From: Diphasiastrum complanatum
Lineage: Eukaryota; Streptophyta; Lycopodiopsida; Lycopodiales; Lycopodiaceae
Reading direction: 5' to 3'
Assembly: GCA_029204225.1 (NCBI GenBank)
Contig: CM055111.1
Location: forward strand, 47,757,470-47,821,469
DNA length: 64,000 bases
Each line of letters starts with the position of its first letter. Position 1 is the first letter of the stretch. Positions 26,663-48,914 of this stretch are shown here, in pieces. Below the pieces are notes generated by a model that saw only the letters and a list, made by a program, of their open reading frames with translations, searched no databases and was not told the DNA's origin. The translations under genes were made by a program, and so were the position numbers.

Positions 26663-26667
26663 GAGAA
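26663..26667. repeat. Target-site duplication GAGAA, left
   Basis: GAGAA directly precedes the Copia A 5' LTR and is repeated at 32452-32456 directly after the 3' LTR. Five bases is the usual Copia duplication length. Confidence 0.9.
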
Positions 26668-27405
26668 TGTGAAGAATTGAAAAAAGATTATCTATGTTAG
26701 ATATAGGGGTCTTATGTTTTTTACATCAAGCATCTAGATGTAGGATGCTGATAGGAATAAATTTGGCATAGATGGCAAATTATGCATTTCCACTTGTAAT
26801 GCCACTATTGAGCCAAAATAGAGTAAGAGGCTAAACACTTGCTAATTAGAGTGTAGACAAGTGTAAAGTTTTTGTTTGATGAATTCCAAGAGGTCCAATA
26901 GGATTTAGAGGTGGAACCTTGTGAGGTCCAATAGGAAATTGAGGTGTGCTTGAATATAGTCCAATAGAATCAAGAGGTGCATAGATCAATGATCCAATAG
27001 GATCAAGAGGTGACAAAATATGGTCCAATCATAGTTAAGCATAGTGGTAGCTCGTGGACCTACTAGTATCATTGTACTCCTCATTTTGAAATCAATTGAT
27101 TTGGTGATTTCATGAATTTTGTGAGTTATTGGATTTCTAGCTTTCTCTCTCTACCCGAGAGCTCATGATGCATTTTCTCTCTCTACCTGAGGAGAGCAAC
27201 TTGTTTTTACTTAGATTATTTTTTGAATACTTCCCACACGTGTGAGTGAGAGTTGGAAGTGATTGAATGCATGTAGTAGCGTGTTTTTGCCAGAGGATTC
27301 AAGATTGATCTTGAATCTCAATCTAGTCTTGATTTTGGTGCATCTACACACCTTAGGAGATCACAAGTACATGTAGTGGACAGTCCACACGTGTGAAATT
27401 CAACA
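26668..27405 (+). mobile_element. Copia A 5' LTR
   Basis: 738 bp, starting TGTGAAGAATTG and ending AAATTCAACA. Compared by eye with the 3' LTR (737 bp) it shows about 18 substitutions and one single-base indel, roughly 2.5% divergence, so the insertion is fairly recent. GAATTCCAAGAGGTCCAATAGG and related AGGTCCAATAGGA phrases recur inside. CACACGTGTG palindromes occur near 27235 and 27386. Confidence 0.92.
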
Positions 27406-27417
27406 TGGTATCAGAGC
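27406..27417 (+). promoter_or_regulatory. Copia A primer-binding site
   Basis: TGGTATCAGAGC follows the LTR without a gap. It is the classic plant Copia primer site, complementary to the 3' end of initiator methionine tRNA. Confidence 0.93.
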
Positions 27418-28108
27418 CTACCTAAGGTTACCATGCATTTTGATCCATCTAAGTGAAAAAATTTCCATCAATCTTGAGCTATAAGTTGTCAAGGCCCATT
27501 TTCCTAGCTATCTTGTTCAATCTTGGATCAAAAGAGATCAAAAGGACATTGATTGGGTCTGACCTGGTACTGTACGGAATCAGGTGCTCAGACACGTGTG
27601 AGGAACATCCAATTTCAGTTTGAAAATTCTCTCTCATGTTTGATCCATTTATCTTGCTTGATAGCTTGTTTTGAAGCTATTTTTGTCTAGTTTCTGTTGC
27701 AATCAGTTTTATTCCATTTGGTTGAGCCAATCAAAAGTTATAAGCTTTTGAAGAAGGTTAGGTAGGGCACCTAGACCTGGGTGGACACATTTGGTTTGTT
27801 CAAGAGATTGCTTGGTTGATCCAAAATCACAGTTGTATGCTTGCCAATCTCATCTATATGTGATCTAGGCACTGTTTTGAGATCTTAGCCATTTTGTTTC
27901 ATGCAATATCATTGTATTTGAGTCAAATTTGGTTTCTTAGTGTATTTCACACGTGCTAAGAGTGTTAGATCCTAACTTTGCCTATACTCCATCATTTGAT
28001 GTGAAACAGATCTTGTTTTAGAGAGATTTGAGTAGCTAGTGAGAATCAATTCACAAATTGTTGTAAGATCTTTCATAGGAGGAGATAGTACTCAATTATT
28101 GGATCCTA
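27418..28108 (+). other. Copia A untranslated leader
   Basis: About 690 bp of AT-rich leader between primer site and gag-pol. It has several short upstream ATGs but no domain. CACACGTGTGAGG near 27592 repeats a palindrome found in the LTR. Confidence 0.7.
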
Positions 28109-31100
28109 TTGAAAGTGTGTAACAACATTTATTGTTCATCATTTGAGTTTTCTTCACTTCAAATGTCTTCAATGGGTTCATCCTTGTTGGAACCAAGTGA
28201 AAGATTGACCACTTCAAATTATTCAATTTGGAAAATGAGGCTGGAGTCCATCTTGATTCTTCAAGACGTGATGGACATAGTTCTTGGCCTTGAAGAAGAA
28301 CCACAAGTTCTTCAAGAGGTTCAAAAATACAAAAAGAGAGCTAGGATGGCTCTCCACTACATTAAGATGAATGTCTCTAATGAGATATTGAGGGAGATAG
28401 GTACTTGTACAACAGCCAAAGAAGCTTGGGATTGTCTCAAGACTATCTATGAGGCTAAGAATACCTCTAGGCTTCTCACTCTTAGGAATCAAATCTTTCA
28501 AAGTAGCCAAAAGAGTGATGAGAGTGCATCTAGTTATGTTTTGAGAGTAAAAGATATTCATAGAAAGCTTGTTTGCATTGGTGATTCCATCAATCAAAAT
28601 GAGCTAGTTCAAGTCATTCTCAATGGCTTGATAAGTGAATTTGATAACCTTGTCCAATCCTATGCCATTAAGGAGGAGCTACCAAGTTTGGAGACTCTCC
28701 AAAGTGTGCTAATTTCAGAAGAATCAAGACAAGAGTACAAGCACTTGAGGATGGACAAGCTTTCTCTCACTCATAATGATGGCAAAGCTCTCTTTGCCAA
28801 GGATAAGCACAAAGAGAGGAGCAAGAACCAACATCAACAATCCTCAAGCAAGGACAAAGTCAAATCCAAAGACAAAGATGAGGAGGAAGATGATTCCTCT
28901 AATGCTTCATCATCCAAGCTCAAGAAGAAGAAGAAGATCAAGTGCTTTTATTGTGGCAAGAAAGGTCATTATGCCACCAATTGCTTCAAAAAGAAGAATC
29001 AACTCAAGCAAGCCAATATTACCAATGAGAAGGAAGATACTATTGCAAGTGATGGAGAGGGATCTCTTATGGTCTCTAGTTTCTCATCTACTCCTTTCAA
29101 GAAGGACGGCCTATGGTATATTGATAGTGGATCCTCTTCACATATGTGTAGCTTCAAGGACTCTTTCTCTTCTATTGCACCTTATGATGGAGTGAGGAAA
29201 TCAATATACACTACAAATGATTTTGAATGTCCTATTGAAGGCATAGGGAACATTCCCTTGAAGCTTGCATCCTCTAAAGTTCTTTCTCTCTCTAGAGTTC
29301 TTTATGTACCTAAGCTTACCAAGAATCTTATTAGTGCTGGCCAATTGCTTGATAATGGCCTTGATGTAGAATTCAATGTTGATACTTGCACTATCAAGAA
29401 GAATGATGAGATACTTGCATTAGGATCTAGATTTGGTGGCATCTATAAACTAGATCCAAATGAGTATGTGAATGCTTGTAATGTTGCTCTTGTGAACAAG
29501 CTCTCTATGGAGGAATTATGGCATAGGAGGTTGGGACATCCCAACTACAAATCCATGCTCTCTATGATCAAAGAGACCAAAGCTATTGGTTTGCCAAAGT
29601 CATTCTCCAAGAAGATCAAGCCTTGTGAGGCTTGTGCTGTTGCTAAATCTCACAAAAAGCCATTTACAAGATCTTCTATCAAAAGCAAGCATCCTTTGGA
29701 GTTAATCCACTCGGATGTGCATTTCTCATCAACTACAAGCAAGGGAGGAGCCACTTGTTTTGTTACTTTCATTGATGATTACACAAGATTCACTTGGATA
29801 TATCTTCTTGCTTCAAAATCTATGGTGTTTTATCATTTCCTTATTTTCAAAGCTTATGTAGAGAAGCAATTCTCATTCAAGATTAAAGATCTTAGAAGTG
29901 ATAAAGGTGGTGAATATATCTCCAATAAATTTCAAGATTTTTGTGAGCTTGAAGGCATTAAAAGAGAGTTTTCTTGTGCCTACTCTCCATCTCAAAATGG
30001 AGTGGCCGAGAGAAAGAATAGATCTCTATGTGAATGTGCAAAATCTATGATAATTGAGGCATCTTTGCCCAAAGATTTTTGGGGAGAAGCCATCAATTGT
30101 GCAAATTATCTTTGCAATAGGCTCCCACATATAGCTCTTGGAGGAAAGTCACCATATGAAATCTTTTTTTTTAAGAAGCCTAAGGTTGATCACCTTAGAG
30201 TTTTTGGATGCTTATGCTTTGTCCATATTCCCTTGGAAACAAGGAAGAAGGAAGATCCTAGTGCATGCAAAGGGATCATGGTTGGATACTCATCCACCAA
30301 GAAGGCCTATAGATTCTTTATACTCTCTACTTCTCAAGTTGTTGAAAGTAGAGATGTTGTCTTTCATGAAGATCAACACTCATCATTTGAAGAGGCCGAG
30401 ATCAAGAAATCTATGAATGCATCATCAATTATTGATTTTGAAGACAATCATGATGTGATGGGGTCGAGATTTGAAGAAGACTCTCCTCGGATTTTTTCAC
30501 CAAGAAGATCCATGAGAGATAGATCCGAGCCTAAGAGGCTCTCATATGTTGACAAAGGCAAACAAGTGGATCTTGATTCCACTAATTATGTTTTTTATGT
30601 CTCTCATGAAGAGCCAAAGAATGTACAAGAGGCACTCAATACCAAGGAGTGGTATGATGCCATGAAGCAAGAGTATGATGCATTGATCACCAACAATACT
30701 TGGGAGCTTGTGGATCCTCCATCCAACAAGCATGTGATTGGTTGCAAGTGGGTATTTCGGATCAAGTTCAATCATGATGGCACCATCAACAAGCATAAAG
30801 CAAGATTATGTGCCAAAGGATTTGCTCAAATCCATGGTCTTGATTATGAGGAGACCTTTGCATCCGTTGCAAAGATGGTGACAATAAGAATTCTTATATC
30901 TCTTGCTTGTTTTTTCAATTGGAAGGTGTTCCATTCTAAGAGCATAGATACTCCAATGGAGCAAATTGTAAAAGATCCTAATAAAGGTGATGAAAGATCC
31001 TTTGAGGACATCACACTTTTTAGGAGTCTTGTAGGCTCCTTGATTTGGCTTACCATTACTAGGCCCGATCTTAGTTTTTGTGTGCACAAATTGAGTCAAG

Positions 31101-31696
31101 TTATGCAAGATCCTAAGATCCATCATTGGAAGATGGCCAAGAGGATTCTAAGATATGTATCTTCATCTTGTGATTATGGTCTACTCTATAAAAGTGAAGA
31201 TCTATCCATTATTGGCTACTCGGATTCGGACTTTGCAAGTGACAAGATGGATCGAAAGTCTATTAGTGCATACACTATCTTTCTTGGAGGCAATCTAATA
31301 TCTTGGCTTTCCAAAAAGCAAGATACTATATCTCTCTCTTCATGTGAGGCCGAGTACAAAGCACTCACTACAACTACCAAAGAAGTGCTTTGGATCAAGA
31401 GGATATTAATGGAACTAAAGTGCATCAAGGAGGATGATCTACCAATGATCAAGTGTGATAACATCTCGGCCCAAGCTCTTGCCAATAATCCCATATTTCA
31501 TGCAAGAAGCAAGCACATAGAAGTGGCACACCATTTTGTGAGAGAAAAGCTTATTGGAGAAGAAATCTATTTGGAGCATGTCAACTCGTCCTCTTGTATT
31601 GCCGATCTACTCACCAAGCCTTTGAGCAAAAGTGCTTTCATCAAGCATAGATCTAATCTTGGAGTTATATCAAGATCAATGTTCAAATCTTCATAG
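28109..31696 (+). CDS. Copia A gag-pol polyprotein with the RT core deleted
   Basis: One uninterrupted frame of 1195 codons; the natural start is probably the ATG at 28163 (MSSMGSSLLEPSERL). Order of domains: gag (UBN2-like); zinc knuckle CFYCGKKGHYATNC (about residue 279); protease WYIDSGSSSHM (Asp about 339); integrase with H(472)...C(506) zinc module and a DD35E core at D536, D598 (RSDKGGEY) and E634 (NGVAERKN). The reverse transcriptase starts normally (NTWELVDPP, GCKWVFRIK, ARLCAKGFAQ). It jumps near residue 940 from FFNWKV to FHSKSIDTPME, losing the palm with TAFLNG and YVDD. RNase H (YSDSDFASD, SSCEAEYKAL, LLTKPLS) is complete. The deletion keeps the frame. The element cannot make its own active RT and must have moved in trans if it moved after the loss. 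Confidence 0.95.
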   Translation: MKVCNNIYCSSFEFSSLQMSSMGSSLLEPSERLTTSNYSIWKMRLESILILQDVMDIVLGLEEEPQVLQEVQKYKKRARMALHYIKMNVSNEILREIGTCTTAKEAWDCLKTIYEAKNTSRLLTLRNQIFQSSQKSDESASSYVLRVKDIHRKLVCIGDSINQNELVQVILNGLISEFDNLVQSYAIKEELPSLETLQSVLISEESRQEYKHLRMDKLSLTHNDGKALFAKDKHKERSKNQHQQSSSKDKVKSKDKDEEEDDSSNASSSKLKKKKKIKCFYCGKKGHYATNCFKKKNQLKQANITNEKEDTIASDGEGSLMVSSFSSTPFKKDGLWYIDSGSSSHMCSFKDSFSSIAPYDGVRKSIYTTNDFECPIEGIGNIPLKLASSKVLSLSRVLYVPKLTKNLISAGQLLDNGLDVEFNVDTCTIKKNDEILALGSRFGGIYKLDPNEYVNACNVALVNKLSMEELWHRRLGHPNYKSMLSMIKETKAIGLPKSFSKKIKPCEACAVAKSHKKPFTRSSIKSKHPLELIHSDVHFSSTTSKGGATCFVTFIDDYTRFTWIYLLASKSMVFYHFLIFKAYVEKQFSFKIKDLRSDKGGEYISNKFQDFCELEGIKREFSCAYSPSQNGVAERKNRSLCECAKSMIIEASLPKDFWGEAINCANYLCNRLPHIALGGKSPYEIFFFKKPKVDHLRVFGCLCFVHIPLETRKKEDPSACKGIMVGYSSTKKAYRFFILSTSQVVESRDVVFHEDQHSSFEEAEIKKSMNASSIIDFEDNHDVMGSRFEEDSPRIFSPRRSMRDRSEPKRLSYVDKGKQVDLDSTNYVFYVSHEEPKNVQEALNTKEWYDAMKQEYDALITNNTWELVDPPSNKHVIGCKWVFRIKFNHDGTINKHKARLCAKGFAQIHGLDYEETFASVAKMVTIRILISLACFFNWKVFHSKSIDTPMEQIVKDPNKGDERSFEDITLFRSLVGSLIWLTITRPDLSFCVHKLSQVMQDPKIHHWKMAKRILRYVSSSCDYGLLYKSEDLSIIGYSDSDFASDKMDRKSISAYTIFLGGNLISWLSKKQDTISLSSCEAEYKALTTTTKEVLWIKRILMELKCIKEDDLPMIKCDNISAQALANNPIFHARSKHIEVAHHFVREKLIGEEIYLEHVNSSSCIADLLTKPLSKSAFIKHRSNLGVISRSMFKSS

Positions 31697-31706
31697 ATAA
31701 TTTTTT

Positions 31707-31714
31707 AGGAGGAG
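31707..31714 (+). promoter_or_regulatory. Copia A polypurine tract
   Basis: AGGAGGAG lies immediately before the 3' LTR and after a T run, the expected plus-strand primer. Confidence 0.85.
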
Positions 31715-32451
31715 TGTGAAGAATTGAAAAAGATTATCTATATTAGATATAGGGGTCTTATGTTTTTTACATCAAGCATCTAGATGTAGGATGTTGATAG
31801 GAATAAATTTGGCATAGATGGCAAATCATGCATTTCCACTTGTAATGCCACTATTGAGCCAAAATAGAGTAAGAGGCTAAACACTTGCTAATTAGAGTGT
31901 AGACAAGTGTAAAATTTTTGTTTGATGAATTCCAAGAGGTCCAATAGGATTTAGAGGTGGAACCTTGTGAGGTCCAATAGGAAATTGAGGTGTGCTTGAA
32001 TATAGTCCAATAGAATTAAGAGGTGCATAGATCAATGATCCAATAGGATCAAGAGGTGACAAAATATGGTCCAATCATAGTTAAGCATAGTGGTAGCTCG
32101 TGGACCTACTAGTATCATTGTACTCCTCATTTTGAAGTCAATTGATTTGGTGATTTCATGGATTTTGTGAGTTATTGGATTTCTAGCTTTCTCTCTCTAC
32201 CCGAGAGCTCATGATGCATTTTCTCTCTCTACTCGAGGAGAGCAGCTTGTTTTTACTAAGATTATTTTTTGAGTACTTCCCACACGTGTGAGTGAGAGTT
32301 GGAAGTGATTGAATGCATGTAGTAGTGTGTTTTTGCCATAGGATTCAAAATTGATCTTGAATCTCAATCTAGTCTTGATCTTGGTGCATCTACAAACCTT
32401 AGGAGATCACAAGTACATGTAGTGGACAGTCCACATGTGTGAAATTCAACA
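31715..32451 (+). mobile_element. Copia A 3' LTR
   Basis: 737 bp with the same TGTGAAG...CAACA ends as the 5' LTR, followed directly by GAGAA at 32452-32456. Differences from the 5' LTR are spread evenly and are mostly transitions (for example ACACGTGTG versus ACATGTGTG near the end). Confidence 0.92.
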
Positions 32452-32656
32452 GAGAACTCATGTATAAATATGAAATGAGATGAGAGAGAGAATGCTTCTC
32501 TTCCCATGAGTTTACATCTATTTATAACAGGTCCATGTCTCATTAATGATCTTGGTTTCCCTCCATAACAAAAACCCTACTATTAATGTGGACTAGATTC
32601 AATGAACAAGATATTCAAATTTGAATCATCCAAATTGGACCTCCTACATTTTCCCT

Positions 32657-33734
32657 TGATATGGTTTAAGTTTGGATCAATTTCACCATGTAATCTGGCG
32701 CCATGCAACATTGTATTCTCTCAATGTTTTAAAAAGACTTTCCAAGTCTGTAAAACATTATAAGATAATTTATTGTTAAGGTTTTTAGCCTTGAGTAGGC
32801 CCAACAAGTCGTACATGGGCCCCTAGAGGCAATTTCACATACTTCTAGCTTAATGTTGGAATTTTGTCAATTTTGCATGTAGAAGAGGGTGCATTTTTCC
32901 TAGTGTGGAAACCTGTGGACCAAGGCAAATCATGCAAAGACTCATTGCATGTAGAGAGAATGTGAAAACCCATGCATAAAAGTGCATGCTTGAGACTTAG
33001 CATGTGGGACACGTACTTTGACACTTGGAAGCCATGTACATCACATATTATTTGTTTCTTATCTATAAAAGAGACCTGCTAGTGGGTGCACTTTTGATGG
33101 AGAGATATTTCTTACATATGCTATAGTGTTTTGCTCTCTTGTGTGGTAGATTTCTTGCTCATTAATGATAGTGTTATGCTCTCCATATGGTTTCTTGAAT
33201 GGTGTTTAGTTGGATCTTGTTTCTTTCATTGTATCTTGCTAATGTTATGTTCTTCATGCTGGAAATTTGTGGACAACAAGTATTTGAGATCCATTTGGCC
33301 TAATTGAAGGAGCAATATCAAAGATTAATGATGCTAGAATGCTCCCTACAACACACACTATCATTCTAGATAATGAAGCAAGTTTCTTTCATGAGTATTT
33401 TGTAATTTTCTGCTCACATCCTCTTCATCTTCTTAGTTGTCCACCATAGCTGGGTAGATCCAATCGCTTCATAAGTATGATCAATTAATCGCATGTCAAC
33501 AAATTTACAATTTGCTAGCAATTTACTTTTGCATGTGCAAGTATTAGTCCATGCATGTTGCATGCATGTCTCTTGATTTTTTCAGATTGCTTGCATGTTG
33601 CCATATATGCTTGCATGTCGAATGCATGTTAGTGGTTTTAATCTATTTTGAGTTGTCGAAGACCATCAAGGTCTCCTAGATTGGTAAACCTTGATTCAAA
33701 GATTCTTTCTATCTCTATTCTCAGTTTTACAACA
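32657..33734. mobile_element. Solo LTR nested in the Copia B LTR
   Basis: 1078 bp with TG...CA ends (TGATATGG...TTTTACAACA), flanked by the exact duplication TCCCT at 32652-32656 and 33735-33739. The uninterrupted Copia B LTR at 1077-1684 reads straight across this point (CTACATTTCCTACACTTTC), which confirms the insertion site. A TATA box TATAAAA lies at about 33064 on the plus strand. There is no internal region, so this is a recombined solo LTR. A GCATGC/TGCATG-rich stretch lies at 33540-33620. Family unknown. Confidence 0.8.
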
Positions 33735-33867
33735 TCCCTCACTTTCTAAAAATGGTAATTCAAAAACATTTGAACTAAAATAACTTTGAAATGTTAATCT
33801 CTAAGTCTAAAATGTTAAATAAACAAATTATGACCAAACTTGACTAAACTAGTTGAAATCTCTCACA

Positions 33868-34999
33868 AGTTTTACTATGATCCTTTGTGTACGCTACAAA
33901 TGAATCTTTGCTACAAATAGTAAAAATATTTTTTTTAATGTTTTGCTAAGATCTCACATTATAAGAGAGATCATATGTCATTGGTTCCCTCACCGGTACC
34001 CCAACGGGTGTTGTCTACCATGGAGTGTGCAGAGATTGCAAAGCATTGGAGTGGAATACACTCATTGACAAAGACATCCACCTCTTTAGAGTGGCATCTT
34101 GACGTACAATGCATTGGCCCTTTTGGATAAAGATGTAATTGTTGTATACACATATGACAATATTAGAATTCAAGCACAATAGTACTTCAACATGACAAAT
34201 GAGATTGAATTTGGAGGCCAATGAAAGGCCAATTTTTTTTTATCTAGTCCACTTTATAAAAAAAAGGTGGTCTTTTCTAAGTCCAATAATAAGTTTGATT
34301 GTATTTTTGGCACAATCAATGGAGTGGCATGTCAAGAATTGATCAACAAATAGACAAGTAATTAGTCGCGAAGAGCAGACAGCCAGACAAAACATAGAAA
34401 AGCATTGCAGTATTGACACAAATCTGAACGTAGAACCCAGCAGGTTTTGTAATCAGATTAAGTATAATGAAATATACAAGCCAATATTGCAGGCGAGCAC
34501 AAAACAATAGCGGACGTGACCGTGTGCTTCTCAAAGCTAATCACAATTTGTAAAGGTTATGAACCTATTACTGACAATCTATCTAAAAGAAAGAATCAAT
34601 GCGCGAAGGCATCTACAATGTCTGTCTCTGAATTACAAATCATGTTTAGTTCTATCTTCTGTTGTTTAAATACTAAGATGGTATTCAATATCTACATAAA
34701 TTTTATAGCTGTGCAGATGAAGAAGGTACAAAAGTGGTTGTGTTGTCTGTGGGAGATCGTGGGTGGTTGTTGTTGTTGTCAATTTGATTGCACAGTGCAT
34801 AGAACGAGCGTGAGGAGGCCGCAACGTCGGGCTTCGCTAAATTTCATGCTGGTGAAAATGCGAAAATTGCAACACTCTGTCCAATGCCTTAGAAAATGAT
34901 TTGCAAGGTACCTTCGCCTTTCTATAAGGGCACCTTCGGCTATTGTAGGGCACCTTCGGCATTTATGTCTTCGCAAAAAATACAAAGGTGAAACTTTGT
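33868..34999. other. No recognised gene
   Basis: Open stretches on the minus strand (33971-34221, 34343-34534) and plus strand (34516-34899) have no domain I recognise and are cut by stops in neighbouring frames. A short repeat, AGGGCACCTTCGGC(T)ATT, occurs two to three times at 34909-34960. Confidence 0.4.
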
Positions 35000-35107
35000 C
35001 GCATTTTTCGCCTATCTTATTTTACGTGTAAATATGCAAATTGTGGTGACTGCCGCATTTTTCGCCTGTCTTATTTTACATGTAAATATGCAGACTGTGC
35101 GACAACA
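35000..35107. repeat. 54-bp tandem duplication
   Basis: CGCATTTTTCGCCTnTCTTATTTTACnTGTAAATATGCA occurs at 35000 and again at 35054. The two units differ at a few positions. No function suggested. Confidence 0.8.
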
Positions 35108-35608
35108 CAAGTAAAAATACAGCAACATGAATGGAAGTAGATTAACATAGGATTTAAGAGAGTAGAGAAGATAAATCCAACAATGCATACATGAAGAAGG
35201 TGGTTCTTCTACATTCTTTTGTGATGAGTCCAAGAAAGTCATTTTTGCATCAAGTGGAGTCACATATTTTCATAAAGAGAGTAGATCAAATGGTTCCATC
35301 ATGAGACTTGGTGAGGGAGGTAAACACAATTCAAGAAGAAGAGAAGTATTTGAAGAGTTCAAAGTAGGGTGTACTTTGAATGATGTCCTTGTGAATGATA
35401 GTGAGAAATAATCATCATCATATTAGTCATTACCTAAAACATTTAATAGAAGTTCTTGTTTGAAAAAAGAGAGTACTTCAATCGTCCTTATGTTGAAGGT
35501 ACTGATGATTTTTATCATGGCTTCTAATGTTTTTGAGATTTCTACTTCTTATGATGCAATCATTAAGAGGAAGTCTTATGAAGGAAAGAGCAATGGAAGA
35601 TCCAAGGC
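35108..35608 (+). other. Possible upstream part of the ORF at 35609
   Basis: Contains the open stretch 35460-35660 in another frame (MKKESTSIVLMLKVLMIF...). It could be the upstream half of the following ORF after a frameshift: its last codons, KSNGRSKAWISHLFINSKD, overlap the start of the next frame. No domain. Confidence 0.35.
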
Positions 35609-35974
35609 ATGGATCTCACATCTCTTCATCAACTCAAAGGATTCTATGATTATGAATTAATCACTCATGATCGAGATGGAAAAAGGTTGGTTGGAGAAGA
35701 CTACATGGAGCAAATCGAGAGGCAATTTCTACAAGGCAAGGGAGATCTCATTGGTGAGCTTATTGAGGTTCCTTATGGACTCAAGAAGTCTGGATCTATT
35801 AGGTTTGATACTCATCTTCACCTACTCTACTTCATGTTCGATGAAAAGTTTGGAATCTATCTTTTGCTTTATGATGGTGGCATTGTTTTCACTAACCTTT
35901 GTGGAAATTCAAAATCAGACATTGATGAGATCTTGTTGGATCTAGATCATATGTTTGAGAGAGAAAATTTTTAG
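35609..35974 (+). CDS. Unidentified 121-codon ORF next to a Copia B LTR
   Basis: Translation MDLTSLHQLKGFYDYELITH...ERENF is compositionally normal, with charged and hydrophobic residues mixed (DYMEQIERQFLQGKGDLIGE, RFDTHLHLLYFMFDEKFGIY). It has no stop and no low complexity, unlike the shadows around it. After its stop the text stays protein-like in places (EDIDIFDIFDDQEKG). It lies about 300 bp upstream of the Copia B copy 3 LTR and may be a sequence carried by that element or a gene fragment. I do not recognise it. Confidence 0.4.
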   Translation: MDLTSLHQLKGFYDYELITHDRDGKRLVGEDYMEQIERQFLQGKGDLIGELIEVPYGLKKSGSIRFDTHLHLLYFMFDEKFGIYLLLYDGGIVFTNLCGNSKSDIDEILLDLDHMFERENF

Positions 35975-36269
35975 AGGTTCAGGTCTGAAGATATTGATAT
36001 ATTTGATATCTTTGACGATCAAGAGAAAGGTAAGCAAGTGGAAGTGACACTCTTTGTTTTACTCACACGTTTGGAGAATCTTCTTCCGTAGATGATGCTA
36101 TGCAAGTAAATATTGGTATTCATGGTTTTACATAAACTAAAGGATTTGTAAAGGAGATCTTAGTCAATGAATTTGATGGTCAAGTGGAAGATCAAGAATT
36201 TGATCTCAAAGGGCTTCAACAACACAAAAGGGAAAGCGGGAATTCGGAACTAGTCAAGAGCATCAAAGG

Positions 36270-36705
36270 AGGGTCATTTTTAAAGGTGTTTTGGATCCAT
36301 TTTTGTAGAATGTGTCATGGATCTACTATATATAGCTATACACATGTGTGAGGAGAAGCATTCTCTCTCTCTCTCATCTCATTTCATGCTTATACATGAG
36401 TTCTCTTGGGTTCATCTAGCCATTGGTGCACTATATTTGTGATATCTTGCAATTTTGTGTGTAGAATGCTCATTAAATGTTATAATCGGATCCACATGTG
36501 TGAAAAATAGTAGCTTACTATTTTTGTATGGACAGAAACTTCATTTCATGTTTTGATTTATGTTTGATCAAGATCTATTAGAGTTTGCATCTCATTCATA
36601 GAATAGATGTTGGTTTTTCTACATTGGCAAGGTTGGTGATTTGTTGTCTTCTAACCAAAGATCAAAGGGATGATTTTGGATCTTAATGGTCTGAAATTAT
36701 TCACA
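36270..36705 (+). mobile_element. Copia family B, copy 3: LTR
   Basis: From about 36310 it matches the inverse complement of 26362-32560 and of 1077-1430. The shared parts are the TATA region CTACTATATATAGCT at 36331, the CT-rich tract, CATTTCATGCTTATACATGAG, GTATGGACA and the 3' end ATTATTCACA at 36705. The U3 part differs from the other two copies. The left edge is uncertain; a purine run AAAGGAGGG near 36267 could be the polypurine tract. Confidence 0.6.
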
Positions 36706-38116: not shown

Positions 38117-38160
38117 TGTTGCAGGCATTAGAGGAGTTCTTAATATCAAAAAGACCCTTT
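38117..38160 (+). repeat. Left terminal inverted repeat of the X-Y-Z-W segment
   Basis: TGTTGCAGG followed by the 35-bp core CATTAGAGGAGTTCT...AAGACCCTTT at 38126-38160. The core is the inverse complement of 45375-45409 with a single mismatch. The inner flanks then diverge. It lies 17 bp from the LTR start at 38100, so it could alternatively belong to the 3' end of that retroelement. Confidence 0.6.
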
Positions 38161-38650
38161 AAGAAATGCCATGTAGGATATACAAAAATATCAAAATAAA
38201 TAAAACAATATTGTTTGTTTGCTTGCCCACACCACTCCCAAGGCCTCCCCAACTCTCAATGATCTAACCACAGTGTCTATAGTCACAGTTAAGAACTGTT
38301 AATAGTTCGCAGTATAACTTGACTAAATTCAAAAATATTCCCTCCATTGGTTACGAAAAGGACAATATTTTCACTGGATCTAGAATATGACCGCCATCCC
38401 CAAATTTGAATCAGAAAAAATTGCAAAATGTTTACATATGCATTCCTTCCACAAGAATGGAAATATGAGCGCCAACTACCTATTGGAATGAAAAAATGAG
38501 CGGCATTTCCAAATTTGAATCAAGCATACAAGCATGGAGATTGGATTGATCGTACATAGTATATAATATAATCAAAGATGAGTATTTTGTTTTGCTTCAT
38601 AGAATCTGGTCATAGTACTTTGATGCAAGTGATTACTCTATTTTTTTTTT
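38161..38650. other. Upstream region of gene X
   Basis: AT-rich DNA with a near-duplicate phrase (ATATGA(C/G)CGCCA and GAGCGGCATTTCCAAATTTGAATCA near 38385 and 38495). TTTTGCTTCATAG near 38597 could be an acceptor of a further exon. No domain. Confidence 0.35.
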
Positions 38651-39643
38651 ATGATGACATTATATCATCTACATGTGGATATCCCTGTTGATTTGGCACC
38701 TTTGCAGAGAAGAGGAGGCAAAGGAGTTCAAATATCTACTGAAGATCGTTCTCGTTACAGGGCAGAAGGAAAGAAAAACGTGGATTTGTGGACAGATGGA
38801 ACATTATATCCACAAGATCCAAGCACTTTGACACATCCCACATTCTCTTCAATAACTCATTTAGTTACATGGATATGCAATGGGCATAGTGGATTACTAG
38901 GATATTGTGAAAGATTGCAAAACCATGGAAAACAACTTTATATGAATAAAGTTCACTTTTTAGAAGGTGAGTTAATTCAGATATCCTCTTATTGTCAGAA
39001 TAGAGATTGTCATCTCCAAAAGACGTTAGAAGAAAATGAACAACTTAAAAAAAATCATGAATCATTATAGAAGATAGCAATCAATATCAAATCAAAAATA
39101 GAGCAAATGCAATCAGTCTTACAGTCTATTCGTATTGAAAACTTGCAATTACTGAAGGATGTGGATTTAGTAAAGAAGAAGGCTGAAAGTAAGAAGCGAA
39201 AGCGACAAAGTTGCAAGGATATTCAAACGCTTTCAAAAGGAGGTTATCGAAATAGAAGGATCTGTGCATTCAAGTAAGCATATTCTAAATTTTGTAAGTT
39301 TTTCAATGACATTTGGATTTTAATTTCAGCTATGGTGATATTCTGCTAACTATCTATTTTTTTTTGCAGATCTGCATTAGTAGCTCCTCGGAATATTAAA
39401 GACAATGCTTCACTAGGAATGTCATTGGGCACAATATTGACTTCAAATCCATTGAGCGTATCATGATGAACAATAGGATTTCAAATGTAAAGTTTAAAAT
39501 AGCAGAGTCTTTGATGGTGGACATTCAAAATATTTTAGATAAGACTATAGTTCAGGGTGCTTGTGATTTTGTAGGTATTAGTAGGGAAGCATATGCAACA
39601 ATATTTAAACTAAAGAAATTATCTGCTAGCGTATGCATCTAAT
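38651..39643 (+). pseudogene. Gene X: unknown protein with coiled coil, two exons, broken
   Basis: Exon 1 (38651-39273) begins MMTLYHLHVDIPVDLAPLQR and contains AEGKKNVDLWTDGTLYPQDP and ICNGHSGLLGYCERLQNHGK. A Lys/Glu/Leu-rich probable coiled coil and a basic segment KKKAESKKRKRQSCKD follow. One TAG at 39068 interrupts it. A donor GTAAGC at 39274 and an acceptor TTTTTTTTTGCAG ending at 39369 join in phase (Lys-Ser). Exon 2 gives SALVAPRNIKDNASLGMSLG and stops at 39464; an overlapping frame from the ATG at 39463 continues NVKFKIAESLMVDIQNILDK to about 39643. Its 3' end overlaps that of gene Y. A second copy lies at 24599-25092. I do not recognise the family. Confidence 0.5.
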
Positions 39644-40861
39644 AGATGTGCATTATCCTTATTTCCACTAAGCTCAATATAAGTGGAATACAATGAATAA
39701 TGGGATCTCCTTAAAGGAACATTCCCATCAGTAAAGCCTAAAATGTTCAAAACATAAGATCTTTTGACAAAAATGATCTTATTTGTCTTAACAAATTTAT
39801 GTCCTCCTAAATAAAATGATAAAGCTTTAACTGCCATTATAAGACTCTCCCCGACTGGGCTCAGCTTGGAATGAGCAATACAGATCTCACTCTTCAAGAA
39901 ATGCCGAAGATAGTGGCCCAGTCCACTGTCCCTCTGGAACAAGGATGCGTGTTGTCTGAAACCACCTCGTCTCACAGAAAAATCATCTATTATGAGAGCA
40001 TTTTGCAATAGGAAATATGTTAGCGAAAATACATTCAGTGATTGAAAACATTCAAATGCAAGGAAGATTAAACACTTACACATTCTTCATCATCAGCAGC
40101 AACCAGATCAGGATGATCAATATAATGACCATGTATTGAAGTGGAATCATCAGTGAAATGCATTAATGATGGACGAAGGAAGCCCATCTGGGATTGAAAT
40201 GCCGTGAATTCTTCATCGGATGGTCTGCCTCACCCATCCTCAGCTATATTTGATAAAGGCTTATTCAGGCATTCTTCACCGGTCATAAGACCCTCCTCAT
40301 CATCAAAATCAATACCAACAACAATGTCATCTGTCTCAAAATCTACAAAGTCGGAGAATTCGGAAATTGTGCCGGATAATAAACATAGAACCTCGTCCTC
40401 ACGATAGTCAAATAATTTACATAAATCAGCAGTAGTAAAATATACATTGTCATTAATATAATATACAAGCAAATTGAAAAGACATTTCGAATCCTCCATA
40501 GATTTGGATTCATCATCAGATGTATTTTGGCCAGTGAAAGAATCCCGGAGAACATCAGTATTTAAATCAATGAAGTCACTTTCTTTATCAGGAGTGTCGA
40601 TAAGAAAGTGACTGATATCCCTAATGGCTGATGAACAGAGGAGGGTGCAAAAGGAGAGTCAGCAACAAGAAACTCATCATCATCTGGGATCTGAACTAAA
40701 AGAAAAAGTACGAAACCACTCTGATATTCAACCAATTGACATTTCTTGTTGCAATACGAACACATAGAACTACTTTTGAAAAGATCAAACAATTTGGTGA
40801 ACATTCTATCCAGTCTATGTCTAAAAGCTGGGAAGAAATGAACAAGATCAGTATAATGCAT
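39619..40861 (-). pseudogene. Gene Y: unknown protein, frameshifted
   Basis: Minus strand. The N-terminal stretch reads MFTKLFDLFKSSSMCSYCNKKC (a Cys4-like CxxC...C cluster) and LLVQIPDDDEFLVADS. After a frame change near 40610 it continues DTPDKESDFIDLNTDVLRDS, MEDSKCLFNLLVYYINDNVY, FTTADLCKLFDYREDEVLCL and a stop near 40237. A donor-like GTAAGTG sits at 40073-40079; the matching acceptor has lost its G (TTGCAA near 40005). The last part is NALIIDDFSVRRGGFRQHAS, FVKRSYVLNILGFTDGNVPL and DAYASR-stop at 39619. The middle is acidic. Convergent with gene X. No family recognised. Confidence 0.45.
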
Positions 40862-41656
40862 GTACTGGAGTTGACCTATGGAGGAAATAGGCTTCTAAGT
40901 ATATCCCTGAATCTGACATAATGTTTATAAAATACGTCAGAATTTGGTTATACAGTCCTGAAAACATGTAGATATGAAATGAGCATGCACAAAAGCGATA
41001 TGTCGCGAATTTCGAGAACGCAAAAGGTAAAAAAATATTCGGTTTTCGTGCCATTTATATTAAATTTTCGCACATGGTCAACGGACTTATGACACATGTC
41101 TACTTTCAATTCGACAACAGGCGCAGGCACGTGTGAGATGACACCTGCACATGTGTGAAATGACACCTAGACACGTGTCGCGTGTTCATTCGAGTGCTTA
41201 TAAACACGTGTCGCTCTCACATTCGATCGTACAAATCCCACACGTGTAGTGTGACAGAGTGACACGTGTCGCTCTCGCATTTGTCCGTACAACTCCCACA
41301 CGTGTGACAGGACGTTCTTTCGCACGTGCAAACCCCGATATAAAATCACAAATTTCGATGAATTTTTTTCACTTTTTTCTCGCTTCGCATATCGCATTTG
41401 TGCGCGTCCTTCACGATCAAAATTCCTCCTACTACCTTCCATGCGCACAGGTCTGATACATCTTCCTACGTGTCACCCCATATCGCACTTGTGCGTCTTT
41501 CCTCAAATCTAATCGTTCTCTCTGATATTCGGCTCGCATAGGTCCGATATACCGTACATTCTGTCCGTACATAGTGGTCCTCTGCGAGTCCTTTATCATC
41601 CCTTCCTTGTCATCCTAACCTTCACGCACAAGTCCGCTATCACACAGTTCACGCCC
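40862..41656 (+). promoter_or_regulatory. Divergent intergenic region with ACGTG-core direct repeats
   Basis: Seven ACGTG cores, most as CACGTGT, lie at about 41128, 41171, 41205, 41241, 41263, 41298 and 41322. Part of this is a 58-bp direct repeat: ACACGTGTCGCTCTC(A/G)CAT...TCCCACACGTGT starts at 41204 and 41262. GTGTGA(G/A)ATGACACCT is also repeated near 41131. TATA-like ATATAAAA follows at about 41338, and the presumed gene Z start is at 41657. Such clustered G-box/ABRE-type cores are known targets of bZIP and bHLH factors; that they act here is inference. The region could serve both Y (leftward) and Z (rightward). Confidence 0.5.
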
Positions 41657-43371
41657 ATGGATAGGAGAAAGCAGACAAGGAGAGACTTCTTCTCTCCTGG
41701 CTGATCCTCATCTCCTACGGTTGCCATCACACCCCCTGCTAGACCTAGAACGCGCAACCGCAGCAGGTGGCTCTCTGAGATACGCAAGTATCAGAGGTCA
41801 ACAGCTCTGTTGATCCCAAGAGCTCCATTCTACTGTGCTATCCGAAACATAACAAGAAATGATCTCGGATAGCACGTTAGATTCACACCGAGTGCTCTTC
41901 AGTGCCTTCAGGAGGCTGCTAAAGATTATATTAGCCTTTTTTTTTAGGATTCTTTTTTGCTTGCCATCCATACCAAGAGGGTTACCATAATGCCCAAGGA
42001 TTTTCAGCTTCTGATGAGAATGAGGGATAGGTACTATAGGTTACATGTATCTCAGCCTGCTGCTCCTAGACCAACTCCTGTAGATAGGACTCATCTTCCT
42101 ACAAAGCGTCCTAGGAAGCAGACAGCCCCCAAGCATGCTCCTAAGAAAGTGAAGCCTATCCCAGAATCCATTGTAGATAATGCTGTAAATATAGCTACCT
42201 CTGTTTTGGATACTCCTAATATTGCTGTAGATACTACACTTCCACCTCCTCCTCCTCCTCCCAATTTCTATACATATATAGATTCGCATGATTATCTTAA
42301 ATTTGAGAAAGACATATCGGATGCTATAGATACAATTGGTACTCCTTTTTGTTTTAGACTAGAAGAACTTGATTTTAGTATTGATTTTAGAGTTCTAGAT
42401 TGTCTGGATCTCAAAGACAGATGGGCTTCTATCATTGATCCTGTGATAGATTCCGGACTGACACTCTTGCAATTTGACATTGCAAGAGATTCATCAAACG
42501 AGTTGCTGGTGCTGAGTAACTTTCGGCTCCAGGCCTTCAAGGAGAATAATGACACATTGTCACAGTGTCTGACAAGTGGATTCACACCAGCAACAAAGTA
42601 TCTGGTCATTCCTTATCATACCAAATAAGATATATTAAGTGCTTCTTCTTGTTTTATGCATTAACATTGACATTTTCAATTTAAATAGTTCTCAGAATTG
42701 CCGCTAAAGTACTTTCAATCTTATTTTGCAGTGACCACTGGAGTTTAAACCTGATCTCTATTAAGAGATCTGTAAATAATATTACTAAATGTTCTTGTGT
42801 CAAGATGAATTCGGCGAGAAATACGCATAAGGATGTAGATATATTCATTCCATATCTAAGTAAATATATTCCTACAGACGTTCCCCATTCCGTGGACTGG
42901 CAGATCGTCAGCTTGGAGGTAAACTCTTCTTTCTTAATAGCATTTTGAAATCAGTATTCTAATGAAATATTTTCAATCTAATTCATTCTGTTTCATAATT
43001 GATTTCTTGTGTGCTGAATTATTTTGCAGTCACCCTAGCAAAATGATTCATTCAACTGTGGGTGGTACACATTGTACAATGCCAAGCTGTTTTTTGAGTG
43101 GTTCATCCTTCAACAAGATGTTGATATTTCTAAGGTAATAAATTCTGTTTATTCTTATTTTGGAATCATGATTAGTTTTCTATTCTGGTGATGTTATTGG
43201 CCATTACTAATGCATAAATGTTCTATTTTGCAGTTTACACTTCCAGAGTACACATCAAGCCAGGTGTACAGATTTAGACAAGAAATTATCCTGAGTATAC
43301 TGGCTCGGGCAAGGCTTCAGCCTCCCGTTATTGATGATGGTGCAAAAGATGATGTAGTTGTACTAAATTAA
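41657..43371 (+). pseudogene. Gene Z: histone H3/CENH3-like domain fused to Ulp1-type protease
   Basis: From the ATG at 41657 one frame runs to 42628. The first 130 codons align with histone H3: N-tail-like MDRRKQTRRD, then EIRKYQRSTALLIPRAPF, RFTPSALQCLQEAAKDYISL and AIHTKRVTIMPKDFQLL. LLIP, RNIT and DS-x-L-x-AIH are closer to plant CENH3 than to canonical H3, and the loop-1 region is one residue longer than in H3. In-frame stops lie at 41702, 41870 and 41945 (the last in a T9 run). A basic, Pro-rich linker (PTKRPRKQTAPKHAPKKVKP, PPPPPPP) follows, then a Ulp1-like fold: YLVIPYH (end of exon 1), DHWSLNLI in exon 42732-42918, QNDSFNCGWYTLYNAKLFFE in exon 43030-43134, and a last exon 43234-43371 ending in TAA. 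Catalytic His (42736), Gln (43039) and Cys (43057) are kept. The Asp position appears as Asn (KMNS, 42808), and a TAG at 43036 precedes the Gln. Donors and acceptors of the last two introns are canonical and in phase. The first intron's donor is unclear. Confidence 0.6.
41835..41875. repeat. 11-bp inverted repeat within the H3-like region
   Basis: GTGCTATCCGA (41835-41845) and TCGGATAGCAC (41865-41875) are exact inverse complements. The second arm contains the in-frame TAG of the loop-1 region, so the stop may have arisen by a local template switch copying the first arm. Confidence 0.75.
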
Positions 43372-43566
43372 AATCAGAAACAATATAGATAGCATAGAAC
43401 CAAAATACATGTATAGACTTCATAGAAAAATATACATTGATATATCAAATGTTGCTCCAGTTTATGAATTTGGGAGCACAAAATACATGTACAGATGCCC
43501 AACTTGGGCTTTCATTTATTGAATGAAAGGGTGTATACACAGATTTTTACCAAAGTTTATTTGAAA
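43372..43566. other. Intergenic between convergent genes Z and W
   Basis: About 195 bp of AT-rich DNA between the TAA of Z and the TAG of W. It contains the word AAATACATGTA(T/C)AGA twice (43402 and 43481). No gene. Confidence 0.5.
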
Positions 43567-44541
43567 CTATTGTTCTCCCACAATGGTGATTGTTGTAGGT
43601 AGATCTTTGCAGCACGTTATCAGCTCCTGTCTTTTTCGCATCTATGACATGGCAAATATTAGTGAATGTGTAATTGTAAATGATGACATTTTCTATTATT
43701 TTGTTCTATTTTGAAATGGCAATAAACATAAAGTACTTACGAGTCTTCCGTTGATGATAAATCTGAAATATGTTGGTAGATTGGTTTGTAATAGCATCAG
43801 CTCTGTTCTGATAAAATCAAGCTTTTAGTGCTCTTCCACCTCAACCATAGTCAAATATTCCTCATTGTAGATAATGCTTATCTCCATTCAGTTTGTGTGA
43901 CCATTTAGTTCAAAGTCTTAATCCAGTGGTAGCCATGTACCTTCAATTTTCTTGTATCTCTGGTAGCTAAATGTGAGACTGAGCATTTGCTTTTCGATAT
44001 AATATTGAAAGATCATTGAGTACTTTTTAATCCTGAATTCTATGCCATTATTTGTTTTACTATCCCAGCCTTGATCCATGAGATCTGACAAAGTCTCATC
44101 TGATAAATCCTTGCAAACAAATAAAGTTGGTGTCCTACAAACACTAGCACTCGAGAAAAAATCAACAAATGTATGCAATGAGATAAACCAACTTAGGTGA
44201 ACAATTTTTGAGCTTGTGCTTATCTTCATAGCATTTTTAATATCAATGAGTAGCTTGCATCTCAAGGATTCAGAAACAATGTTGTCAGGAGTAGGCCACT
44301 CATCACTTTGAAAACTAGGCAATGGAATTGCTTCGAGCTTGCCAAAACCTCCATCTGTTTGTGGCGTATATAAAGATTCATAAAAATAGATACCACAATC
44401 TGCAAGTTCCTTTGGACTTCTTCCTCTGTATTGTAGCTTTCCAACATCAGAGTGAATCATGTCTAATATTCCTGCAAGTGATTGTGCGGGCTCCCATTCA
44501 CTTATGCATAATGGATATAAATCCGAAAAAAAAAAAAACAA
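43567..44541 (-). pseudogene. Gene W: unknown protein, C-terminal part, two exons, broken
   Basis: Minus strand. The main frame 44541-43918 reads SEWEPAQSLAGILDMIHSDV, GRSPKELADCGIYFYESLYT, ESLRCKLLIDIKNAMKISTS, WFISLHTFVDFF and GIEFRIKKYSMIFQYYIEKQ. It stops after GTWLPLD, then continues in another frame (MEISIIYNEEYLTMVEVEEH, a TAA, then LPTYFRFIINGRL). A canonical donor GTAAGT lies at 43740-43735 and an acceptor CATAG at 43642. They join in phase 0 to the last exon MRKRQELITC...TITIVGEQ with TAG at 43567. The protein looks like a genuine, once-conserved host or element gene, but I cannot place it. An upstream exon probably existed beyond the T-rich tract at 44525-44541. Confidence 0.5.
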
Positions 44542-45374
44542 TGTTGAAGCATTTAAATCATAATCTGAAGAGCATCAATAAAGGAAATCACCTATGATTG
44601 CTGTAGAGTGCATATGTTTTGATATACTTACAATTACATTTTTTATGATCATGAGGATTGATATCATGTACTTTGATTTCTGAATGCATATATACATGTT
44701 GCACTAAGACTTCGGATATCGATTAACCTCCCAGGGTAGTCTTAAATCCCAAAATTTTTGCTTTCCAATAAGATTTGTAAGTCATTTTTGCTCTTTTCTT
44801 TTGTCGAAAATTGCCTTTTGATGATGGATGCAGCAATACCCATGAGTTCTTCGTATATTTTGTTGGCTTCTAGTTATCAGCTTCATCTTTCTCATTGTAA
44901 AGAATCACATAATCGATTGTAGATCTGGGTCTCCTCACCATTGCTATTTTCAAAGCTTGGGCGCCAAAAATCTCTCTGATATGTTACTTGGTTTTAATTT
45001 TTCGTATCACATTTAATCTAATGTGAATGCCAACATAGTCACAATTACTGCGTATACCATATTTTATGTAACTGTACATACTTTATTTCTATAACCGTAA
45101 CTAGTATAGTTAGAAAATTTCATTATACTAACTAGCATAGTAAAGTAAATTTAACTTGAGATATTGACGTCGGGCATATTAGCATGTGTCGAGCAGGAAA
45201 AAGAAACCAATGGGATACGTACATGTTGCCCGGACAAAATTTTAAATTTCGCTATATTGCATTTTTATTTTTTAGTCAATTTGAACTACGTTACGTAGAT
45301 TTCAAATCTGTGCATTTTGATTGGACCTGGTGACGGTCGAAACTGAAAAAAATAAAAAATAAAAATATCTATAC
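44542..45374. other. Right flank of the X-Y-Z-W segment, no gene
   Basis: AT-rich DNA without a convincing frame on either strand. Some words (CATATACAT, TAACTAGTATAGTTAG near 45096-45135) are partly palindromic. Confidence 0.4.
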
Positions 45375-45422
45375 AAAGGGTCTTTTTGATATTGAGAACT
45401 CCTCTAATGACCCACTACAACA
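45375..45422 (-). repeat. Right terminal inverted repeat of the X-Y-Z-W segment
   Basis: 45375-45409 matches the inverse complement of 38126-38160 at 34 of 35 positions. Outside it ACCCACTACAACA continues to a CAACA end at 45422, mirroring TGTTGCAGG at 38117. No clear target-site duplication is seen (CTAATC outside the left end, CCAGTAAT outside the right end). An LTR start of the family lying to the right is the main alternative. Confidence 0.6.
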
Positions 45423-47420: not shown

Positions 47421-47625
47421 TGAGATTTCAGACAGGGTTAACAGGCGTTGGTTGAGATTTGATCGGAGGGTGTTGGCTGAGATGGGAGCGGAGGGCGTCG
47501 GTTCAGATGGGAGCGGAGGGCGTCGGCTGAGATGGGAGGGGAGGGCGTCAGCTGAGATGTAATAGAAAGGCGTCGGCTGAGATGTAATGGAAATGTGTCG
47601 GTTGAGATGTAATGGAAAGGCTGGC
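47421..47625 (-). repeat. 25-bp minisatellite, array 1
   Basis: About eight units of 25 bp of the type GGCGTCGGCTGAGATGGGAG plus five bases, with variants TGTAATGGAAA. The unit is clearly related to that of the array at 48305-48500 (CGTCGG(T/C)TGAGAT core). Translation in any frame gives periodic peptides and is not evidence of a gene. Confidence 0.75.
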
Positions 47626-48304
47626 TGAAGGGAGTGATGGCGGGAAAGGAATGGACTGTGAGGAACTGAGGTTGGGAAGGAAGGTGTGTGAAAGTGGAGG
47701 CGTTGTGGATAGAAGGGTATGGAGGATGTGTGGAAAATGAAGTATGGTGTGAACAATGGAAAGTAGAAGTTCCGAAAAAGAAGATGTTGATATATGTTTG
47801 TGACTAAGCGAAAGGGATGAAGATATTGGGAGATGTAAAGAAAGTAGCTTTCGGTGAAAACGGGTGTTTGGACAGGATGAAAGAAAAGTGTGTAAGATTA
47901 AAAGGTGATACTCAATAGTGTAACGGAAGTGTGTTGAAGGCTTGCATGACACTACCCCTCAGCGTGCGAAATGTTTCAAATGCTTTGTTCTCCACTGGCA
48001 ATATAAGGTTTGGAGATGGTTTGTGATGGCACTCTCAATGGGAAACACACTAGGATGGCTGATATTGGGTGGAGATGGTGTGGAAGCAATGACTGATGCA
48101 CCGGACGAGAGAGCGCCAAGATCGTGTAGGAGAGCCAGAAACTCACCAACAGATTGTCATCAGAGAGCTCCAGAGTTCGCACTTTGCTGAAGTGTGAATG
48201 GCGTTGAAGTGATGGCATTTATGGTCGTCGTCGGCTAGGTTCGGGCGCGATGGGACGTGTCTGTTCGTTGGATTTTGAATGAGAAGTGTCAAGATTTGAT
48301 GAAA
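47626..48304 (-). other. Noncoding spacer between the two minisatellites
   Basis: Minus-strand spacer of the Ty3-type element. Open stretches (47548-47952, Ser/Thr/His-rich) look like low-complexity pyrimidine-rich DNA. No domain. Confidence 0.4.
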
Positions 48305-48500
48305 ATCCATCAGTTGAGATTCGGGCGGATCCCGTCGGTTGAGATTTGAGCGAATCTCGTCGGTTGAGATTTGAACAGATCCCGTCGGTTGAGATTTGAA
48401 CGGATCCCATCGGTTGAGATTTGAGCAGATCCCATCCGTTGAGATTTGAACGAATCCCGTCGGTTGAGATTTGAACGGATCCAGTCGGTTGAGATTTGAC
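48305..48500 (-). repeat. 25-bp minisatellite, array 2
   Basis: Eight consecutive units of 25 bp, consensus CGTCGGTTGAGATTTGAACG plus GATCC, with a few changes per unit (CATCGG, GAATCT, CAGATCC). Because 25 is not a multiple of three, a translation cycles through three frames every 75 bp. It shares its core with array 1 about 700 bp away. Confidence 0.9.
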
Positions 48501-48914
48501 AAAATTCCAATATGAAGGAATTGATCTATTTTCTGCAAGTGAAGAACTTCAAGGGAAAACATGACTGTGGCTCAGAGTAGAAGCTCTTACGAAGAAGGTG
48601 TATCTCCAGGAATGTTTGTATGCCTGAGATACCAGTCAGACGAAGATGAGGTGGCTAAAGTGTGAGAATCACTTCCTATGGTGTAGCCTATCATTTGTTG
48701 ATCTAGAACATCCATGACCCATGAGTATGTACAGAAAAAAGAAAATGCATAGATAGTACATAAGAAATGGTATGAAGTATAAACAAGGAATGAGGTGAAC
48801 AACAGGCATGCAAAACGAGAATTACAAACAAGGAAATAAAATAAAAAGTAATAGAATGAATAAAAAATAACACAAAAAATAAAAATAAAATGTAGAATAT
48901 ATACGAGAGAAAAG
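48501..48914 (-). other. AT-rich spacer after integrase
   Basis: Follows the integrase stop on the minus strand. The hydrophobic-looking frame at 48587-48970 comes from TTT/TAT-rich DNA and is not supported as a membrane protein. Confidence 0.45.

Follow-up and report, generated by a model that had tools for sequence, protein, structure and literature searches.

A high-copy DNA transposon of Diphasiastrum complanatum carries a putative histone H3–Ulp1-type protease fusion gene

We have found that a DNA transposon of Diphasiastrum complanatum carries a gene in which an H3-like histone region is joined to a Ulp1-type (C48) protease domain. The copy described here lies in a stretch of 64,000 nucleotides, referred to below as the window, and some copies elsewhere in the genome are open; the gene of the open copies consists of four exons and 470 codons, specifying a 470-amino-acid protein with an H3 tail and fold, a linker and a C-terminal C48 domain. 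From the comparisons set out below we consider it very probable that the element bears a functional H3–C48 fusion, and probable that the fusion protein acts on chromatin. That anti-silencing is the purpose of this protein is suggested by analogy with other transposons and is put forward tentatively, at somewhat below an even chance. The explanation as a whole, in which a dead copy of a CMCT-like element is paired with a fusion protein that would counter silencing on chromatin, we regard as evenly balanced between right and wrong.

Results

The carrier element and its genes

The element and its genes occupy the following positions in the window.

38126..45409, plus strand: internally deleted DNA transposon copy, 7284 bp, delimited by exact ends, longer relatives and the empty site L054
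38126..38160, plus strand: left terminal inverted repeat (TIR), beginning CATTAGAGG, 35 nt, 97% complementary to the right TIR
38633..39613, plus strand: transposase gene remnant, from alignment to L044 and L045; a deletion at 39613 removed the D-D-E core
39619..40976, minus strand: gene recognised from ORFs of the longer copies L044 and L045, which have about 250 bp more at 40976
41657..42624, plus strand: exon 1 of the fusion gene; encodes the H3-like N tail and fold, the basic Pro-rich linker and the beginning of C48; exon end taken from the copies
42625..42731, plus strand: intron 1; in the window copy the donor is broken (GT to AT) and the acceptor AG intact
42732..42918, plus strand: exon 2; contains the catalytic His of C48 (DHWSLNLI), with KMN at the place of the Ulp1 Asp
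43030..43134, plus strand: exon 3; Gln and Cys of C48 in the motif QNDSFNCG; interrupted in the window copy by a stop at 43036
43234..43371, plus strand: exon 4; encodes the C terminus of the fusion
43918..44940, minus strand: second minus-strand gene, right limit approximate; weak DUF1985 match in L044
45375..45409, minus strand: right TIR, ending CCTCTAATG, 35-bp inverted repeat

The left end of the element is exact: the unrelated flanks of the genome copies differ up to CATTAG and halt at CATTAGAGG. Both ends, with their 35-bp TIRs, are seen in the window copy and in two longer copies, L044 (9357 bp) and L045 (8977 bp). The window copy lacks about 1.85 and 1.5 kb, respectively, of these copies at 39613, and the deleted stretch encodes a transposase-like protein in both; the frame at 38633-39070 is presumably part of the same transposase gene. 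In at least five of the best 40 H3–C48 places in the genome, a transposase match in the same orientation lies 1.8-2.2 kb upstream. The initial annotation, made from the letters of the window, had supposed that a mobile element carries the in-frame fusion, and the exact TIR ends and at least 40 copies bear this out. As for the other genes, the one at 39619..40976 gave no Pfam match above cut-off, and the match of the second minus-strand gene of L044 to PF09331 (DUF1985; E 1.6e-4, 22.1 bits) falls below the cut-off of 35.1.

Other repeats were noted in the window. A Copia retrotransposon with long repeats of about 741 bp (97% identical) and a 1205-amino-acid open frame occupies 26665-32451, and a unit of about 4 kb bounded by inverted repeats (32451-36406) begins beside the Copia repeat, its arms matching over 41 nt (95%) and continuing for 63 nt (78%). 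Three pairs of inverted duplicates at 88-95% identity (10357-11720/51578-52962, 18411-20687/60177-62460 and 22425-24172/56495-58257) may be related retroelements that face opposite ways. The tandem repeats at 47430-47604 and 48267-48541 have a period of 25 bp and lie in a stretch with long open frames.

One frame joins the histone-like and protease halves

Pfam profile searches for the histone fold and Peptidase_C48, by which the initial annotation had proposed to check the fusion, matched both domains: PF00125 on 41657-42088, with X at the three stops (90.5 bits, E 1.2e-25), and PF02902 on window exons 2-4 (32.8 bits, E 7.9e-8). The best relatives of the H3 part of the window copy among solved structures are histone H3 chains (E 3.5e-21). 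With both domains matched and the two halves in line across 30 aligned copies, the reading of an H3-like and a C48 region in one frame stands. The end of exon 1 has to be moved, from 42628 as first given to 42624, where the copies place it. At the donor of intron 1, 25 of the 30 aligned copies have GT, as a rule in the context ACCAA/GTAAGA (exon/intron), four have AT (the window copy, the duplicate of that copy, L024 and L026) and one has GC; reading continues in phase across intron 1 (YHT-N-DHWSLN). In the window copy the other two introns are canonical, as had been said of them. The same early reading had called this copy dead, and it is: it contains four stops (41702, 41870 and 41945 in exon 1, and 43036 in exon 3), its intron 1 donor is AT and its transposase core has been deleted.

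We rejected the possibility that the H3 similarity is a separate retrocopy lying upstream by chance, since the halves are colinear in the 30 aligned copies and in five further copies (L048-L052); the low dN/dS of both halves between subfamilies, described below, also counters it. Moreover, the occurrence of the same 1.8 kb at 94-100% identity in at least 40 places means that the joined frame is no chance reading.

Copies in the genome

The genome searched comprises 1.74 Gb in 5176 contigs. The figure of at least 40 places for the 1.8-kb H3–C48 stretch refers to the best 40 scored of 2444 first-look candidates, ranked by a query spanning both halves, which favours whole copies; 33 of these 40 span the whole gene, three are without the gene end and four are without the first 300-417 query bases. 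The 30 best copies, the window copy among them, form the alignment set. Stop-free paralogues with both domains had been named as something to look for, and in four of the 30 (L006, L010, L011 and L019) no stop interrupts the 470-codon frame and each of the three introns is bounded by GT and AG; over 4815 bases L010 and L011 do not differ, so that these represent three distinct open copies. In the other 26, which are not intact, the frame is stopped or shifted or a splice site has been lost. The H3 part, linker and C48 domain follow in the same order in all five of the further copies L048-L052, of which the diverged L051 and L052 are damaged: their Cys motif contains a stop and has lost its Cys, and their aligned start is without a Met.

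We note a second copy of the window element (C20:47961612-47966913) in inverted orientation on the same contig, at a distance of about 165 kb. It shares the left flank of the window element and is 99.9% identical to it over the 4.8 kb compared. This duplicate reflects either a segmental duplication or an assembly effect.

The histone half

In the spliced open copy L006 the PF00125 match extends over residues 27-123 (97.3 bits), and the region tests as a histone H3 fold. The initial annotation had labelled it H3/CENH3-like. Measured against a small number of reference sequences, the H3 part is identical to canonical H3.1 at 48/84 positions, to Arabidopsis CENH3 at 43/84, to rice CENH3 at 46/87 and to human CENP-A at 42/89; the best-scoring comparison is with P0015 (48/85 identical). 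In a small tree of 12 rows, with all 9 inner branches below the support threshold, the element H3 falls outside plant CENH3 and beside P0034 (support 89/91). The CENH3 label is thus not sustained, identity to CENH3 being no higher than identity to H3 and the tree placing the element apart from plant CENH3. These same two results count against the idea that a captured CENH3 targets the element to centromeres; the likeness of LLIP and PFYR..RNIT to plant CENH3, and a loop 1 that exceeds that of H3 by one residue, would suit that idea, but we consider it improbable.

In H3 numbering, H113, R116, D123, L126 and R129, residues of the H3 four-helix bundle, are kept, and C110 is replaced by Leu. R49 and R63, which in H3 make DNA contacts, are changed; these changes and that of C110 weigh against the explanation favoured below. 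In the tail, L006, L010, L015 and L019 keep the K4 position, as does L052 by alignment, and the K9 position is occupied by Asp in L006, L015, L019 and, by alignment, L052, and by Asn in L010. No K27-like motif was seen by eye in the copies read. The linker contains a stretch, TKRPRKQTAPKRAPKKVK, that looks like a nuclear localization signal (NLS) by eye.

P0034, a 391-amino-acid frame with a CENH3/H3-like domain, is the closest non-tandem relative from elsewhere and groups with the element histone at sub-threshold support. Used as a query, it scored 106 H3 places in the genome, of which 51 are without an internal stop and 22 of those 51 sit in frames of at least 300 amino acids; a few of the places matched by P0034 may be host histones. 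Three proteins were considered as possible fusions in another species and set aside: P0013 and P0014 are tandem H3 proteins, and P0034 is significant in its H3 part only, its tail having no significant C48 match (428 of 5000 shuffles were as good). A homologue search with the window's 226-amino-acid frame gave no match at E 0.001.

The C48 half

The spliced C48 domain of L006 matches its profile at 42.2 bits (E 1.1e-10, cut-off 20.7) over profile positions 81-204 of 217. The His, Gln and Cys are present in the open copies read, and the complete His-Asp-Cys triad of Ulp1 is not: the stretch at the Ulp1 Asp reads VKMNS, so that the Asp position is taken by Asn (or by Ser, depending on the alignment). 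This replacement makes enzyme activity doubtful and weakens the reading of the domain as an active protease. It would suit a dominant-negative or decoy protein, in which a C48 domain without its Asp would bind SUMO-like modifiers and the histone part would titrate H4 or histone chaperones, and so would the conservation of the surrounding KMN..RNTHKD stretch between subfamilies. A pure binder, on the other hand, would not need the Cys, Gln and His motifs that the open copies read have kept, and Asn serves in the papain triad; we consider a decoy of this kind unlikely.

The genome also contains a C48 gene, L001, which we take to be a NEDP1/SENP8-like host protease. It has the C48 fold in common with the element domain (24% identity over 134 columns, E 5e-5), from which it differs in being a cellular gene with a DS motif at the Asp position and an open frame without a histone.

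Selection on the fusion gene

Relative to L006, dN/dS for L048, L050, L051 and L052 was, respectively, 0.16, 0.13, 0.15 and 0.15 in the H3 part, 0.18, 0.36, 0.15 and 0.19 in the C48 domain, and 0.32, 0.57, 0.23 and 0.18 in the linker; L049 was left out as 99.9% identical to L048. As L051 and L052 are 99.8% identical, these amount to three independent comparisons, two of which use copies that are related to each other (L048 and L050 share about 94% identity), and the values for L051 and L052 are rough, with dS above 1.5, near saturation, and L051 aligned partly out of frame.

Variation within the family was taken from 24 copies, six near-duplicates having been dropped. Codon positions differ at 0.047-0.050 per site versus 0.034 for introns, and codons that vary slightly more than introns speak against strong constraint among these 24 copies. 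The ratio of nonsynonymous to synonymous variants (N/S) is 265/90 for singletons, 47/27 for variants found in two copies and 57/33 for those found in three or more, against a neutral expectation of about 2.5; shared variants thus lean synonymous (singletons versus variants in at least three copies, Fisher p 0.035). Divided by part, the variants shared by at least three copies number 19/18 in C48, 24/12 in H3 and 14/3 in the linker. Within the family, variation is nearly neutral: the synonymous lean is mostly that of C48, is not clear in H3 and is absent from the linker.

Constraint shows more strongly in the comparisons between subfamilies. Both halves appear to have been kept by selection, and so the element probably uses the protein. 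The intron comparison lowers our confidence in a functional fusion and raises a little the alternative that the H3 and C48 pieces merely hitch-hike, as captured sequences do in Pack-type transposons. That 26 of the 30 aligned copies are broken, that variation within the family is nearly neutral and that pieces of ULP1 occur in plant MULE and CACTA elements, according to a grapevine study (PMC2528002), would all fit capture without function. Against it are dN/dS values of 0.13-0.36 for both domains across subfamilies, the conserved splice sites and the existence of open copies, and we consider it very improbable.

The class of the element

A large protein set contains relatives of the transposase (P0001-P0012), which are 46-96% identical to the query and cover 24-100% of it. 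Pfam gave no match above cut-off, and no MULE transposase domain, for the transposase pieces, for P0010 or for the frames of L055 and L056, and searches of PDB, NCBIfam and viral contigs with transposase sequences returned no credible relative. A structure model of the transposase core P0010 reached a pLDDT of 50. L044 contains, in order, KLDESE, AGDLK, PCLYC, VHVCTLH and GMEKSH, of which L045 is without the third and fourth; the D-D-E catalytic residues are candidates, assigned by pattern alone. A distant relative of the transposase, L055 (C12:57906552-57907346; 52% identical to P0010), combines the motifs D1, D2, C(2)C and H(4)H in one open frame.

The initial annotation had named MULE-type elements as an example of plant transposons that have captured Ulp1-like proteases. 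MULEs make target-site duplications (TSDs) of 9-11 bp. The present element shows no TSD at its two resolved insertions, gives no Pfam match to a MULE transposase domain, and has candidate CMCT-type motifs and CA..TG ends instead, and we rejected the MULE assignment. CMCT transposases are marked by C(2)C and H(3-4)H between the second D and the E, and the clade has mostly CA..TG ends and TSDs of 2-5 bp, according to a paper of 2025 (PMC12730594). With its termini CATTAG..CTAATG the element has the CA..TG ends of this clade, and the candidate D-D-E, C(2)C and H(4)H motifs of L044 may be a further likeness to the CMCT elements (EnSpm/CACTA, Mirage, Chapaev, Transib, Plavaka, ESTA and Lanisha); it differs from them in a TSD of 0 rather than 2-5 bp, in the lack of a Pfam match above cut-off and in its extra H3–C48 gene. 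By its ends and candidate motifs, though not by its TSDs, the element would fit this clade, and we describe it as a high-copy plant DNA transposon with CMCT-type features.

Insertion sites

By eye, the repeat in which L044 sits resembles a Gypsy integrase gene, and at least 40 empty copies match the joined flanks of L044. The two that were aligned (L046 and L047) run through the joint without a gap or a duplicate. The window element sits in another repeat, for which at least 40 empty copies were scored and one, L054, was aligned; this empty site is ungapped over 298 bases across the joint of the window element. Insertion without a TSD is therefore what we observe for two copies, L044 and the window copy. 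At the ends of L045 no duplicate is visible, and no empty site of good identity was found for it. Spy elements, reportedly described by Han et al. in 2014 as TIR transposons without target-site duplications, are said to belong to the PIF/Harbinger-ISL2EU group; they have TSD-less insertion in common with the present element, which differs in its CMCT-like motifs.

The insertion sites bear on a further alternative, in which the fusion protein would be an integration or excision factor: the H3 part would lead the protein, and with it the transposase, to nucleosomes or replicating chromatin, where C48 would allow transposition or pick sites. Both resolved insertions lie in repeated DNA, and the gene belongs to the element and has been conserved together with the rest of it, as one would expect of such a factor. 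The left flanks of ten loci and of L044 and L045, some of them duplicates and all from top-scoring copies, share no common motif by eye, which does not favour it. We regard a role of this sort as unlikely.

Discussion

We favour the interpretation that the fusion protein counters silencing on chromatin. The H3 part would pair with H4 and enter nucleosomes, whether on the element or elsewhere, and its tail would bring into those nucleosomes a K4 position but, at position 9, Asp or Asn instead of Lys. The C48 domain tethered to it might then remove, or merely bind, SUMO-type modifiers on silencing factors, and the chromatin of the element would be kept expressible and open to transposition, as VANC and KIU proteins keep that of the VANDAL elements of Arabidopsis by other means. 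In its most specific form, the proposal is that the element makes its own histone, a K9-replaced H3 surrogate that delivers a Ulp1-like domain and so blocks SUMO- and H3K9-dependent silencing, and that it belongs to a TSD-less, possibly undescribed CMCT-like lineage; this we offer as a conjecture with perhaps a third of our belief behind it.

Several known transposons provide partial parallels. The KIU (Kaonashi) genes of VANDAL elements, which are non-TIR MULEs, are VANC anti-silencing genes with a captured Ulp1 domain, and resemble the present fusion in that a transposon gene, one of three in the element, joins a Ulp1 domain to a part concerned with epigenetic state, as set out in a review (PMC13317346). 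VANDAL elements are MULEs without TIRs, in contrast to the H3 fold, 35-bp TIRs, other transposase and absence of TSDs found here, and a histone is not mentioned in the main text of that review. Grapevine MULE and CACTA families carrying ULP1 domains are, like the present element, cut-and-paste plant elements with ULP1, and the main text of the paper describing them likewise makes no mention of a histone (PMC2528002). A SET methyltransferase is found in Phytophthora HarbingerS and MuDR families and a TET/JBP dioxygenase in fungal transposons (PMC12730594); these too are genes able to alter epigenetic marks, but they encode modifying enzymes, whereas here it is the histone itself that is encoded. 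A search of the open-licence PMC literature with narrow phrases, covering titles and the beginnings of abstracts, found neither a transposon-encoded histone nor an H3–Ulp1 fusion.

Anti-silencing genes and captured chromatin enzymes have been described in transposons before (PMC13317346, PMC12730594). If the fusion protein enters nucleosomes, the element would go further, in that it would rewrite the substrate of the silencing mark itself and add a SUMO-pathway domain to it. The element is unusual in a second respect, in that a transposase with candidate CMCT motifs would insert it without TSDs. With open copies at hand and low dN/dS in both halves, the idea that a plant transposon may use a histone of its own against silencing is directly testable.
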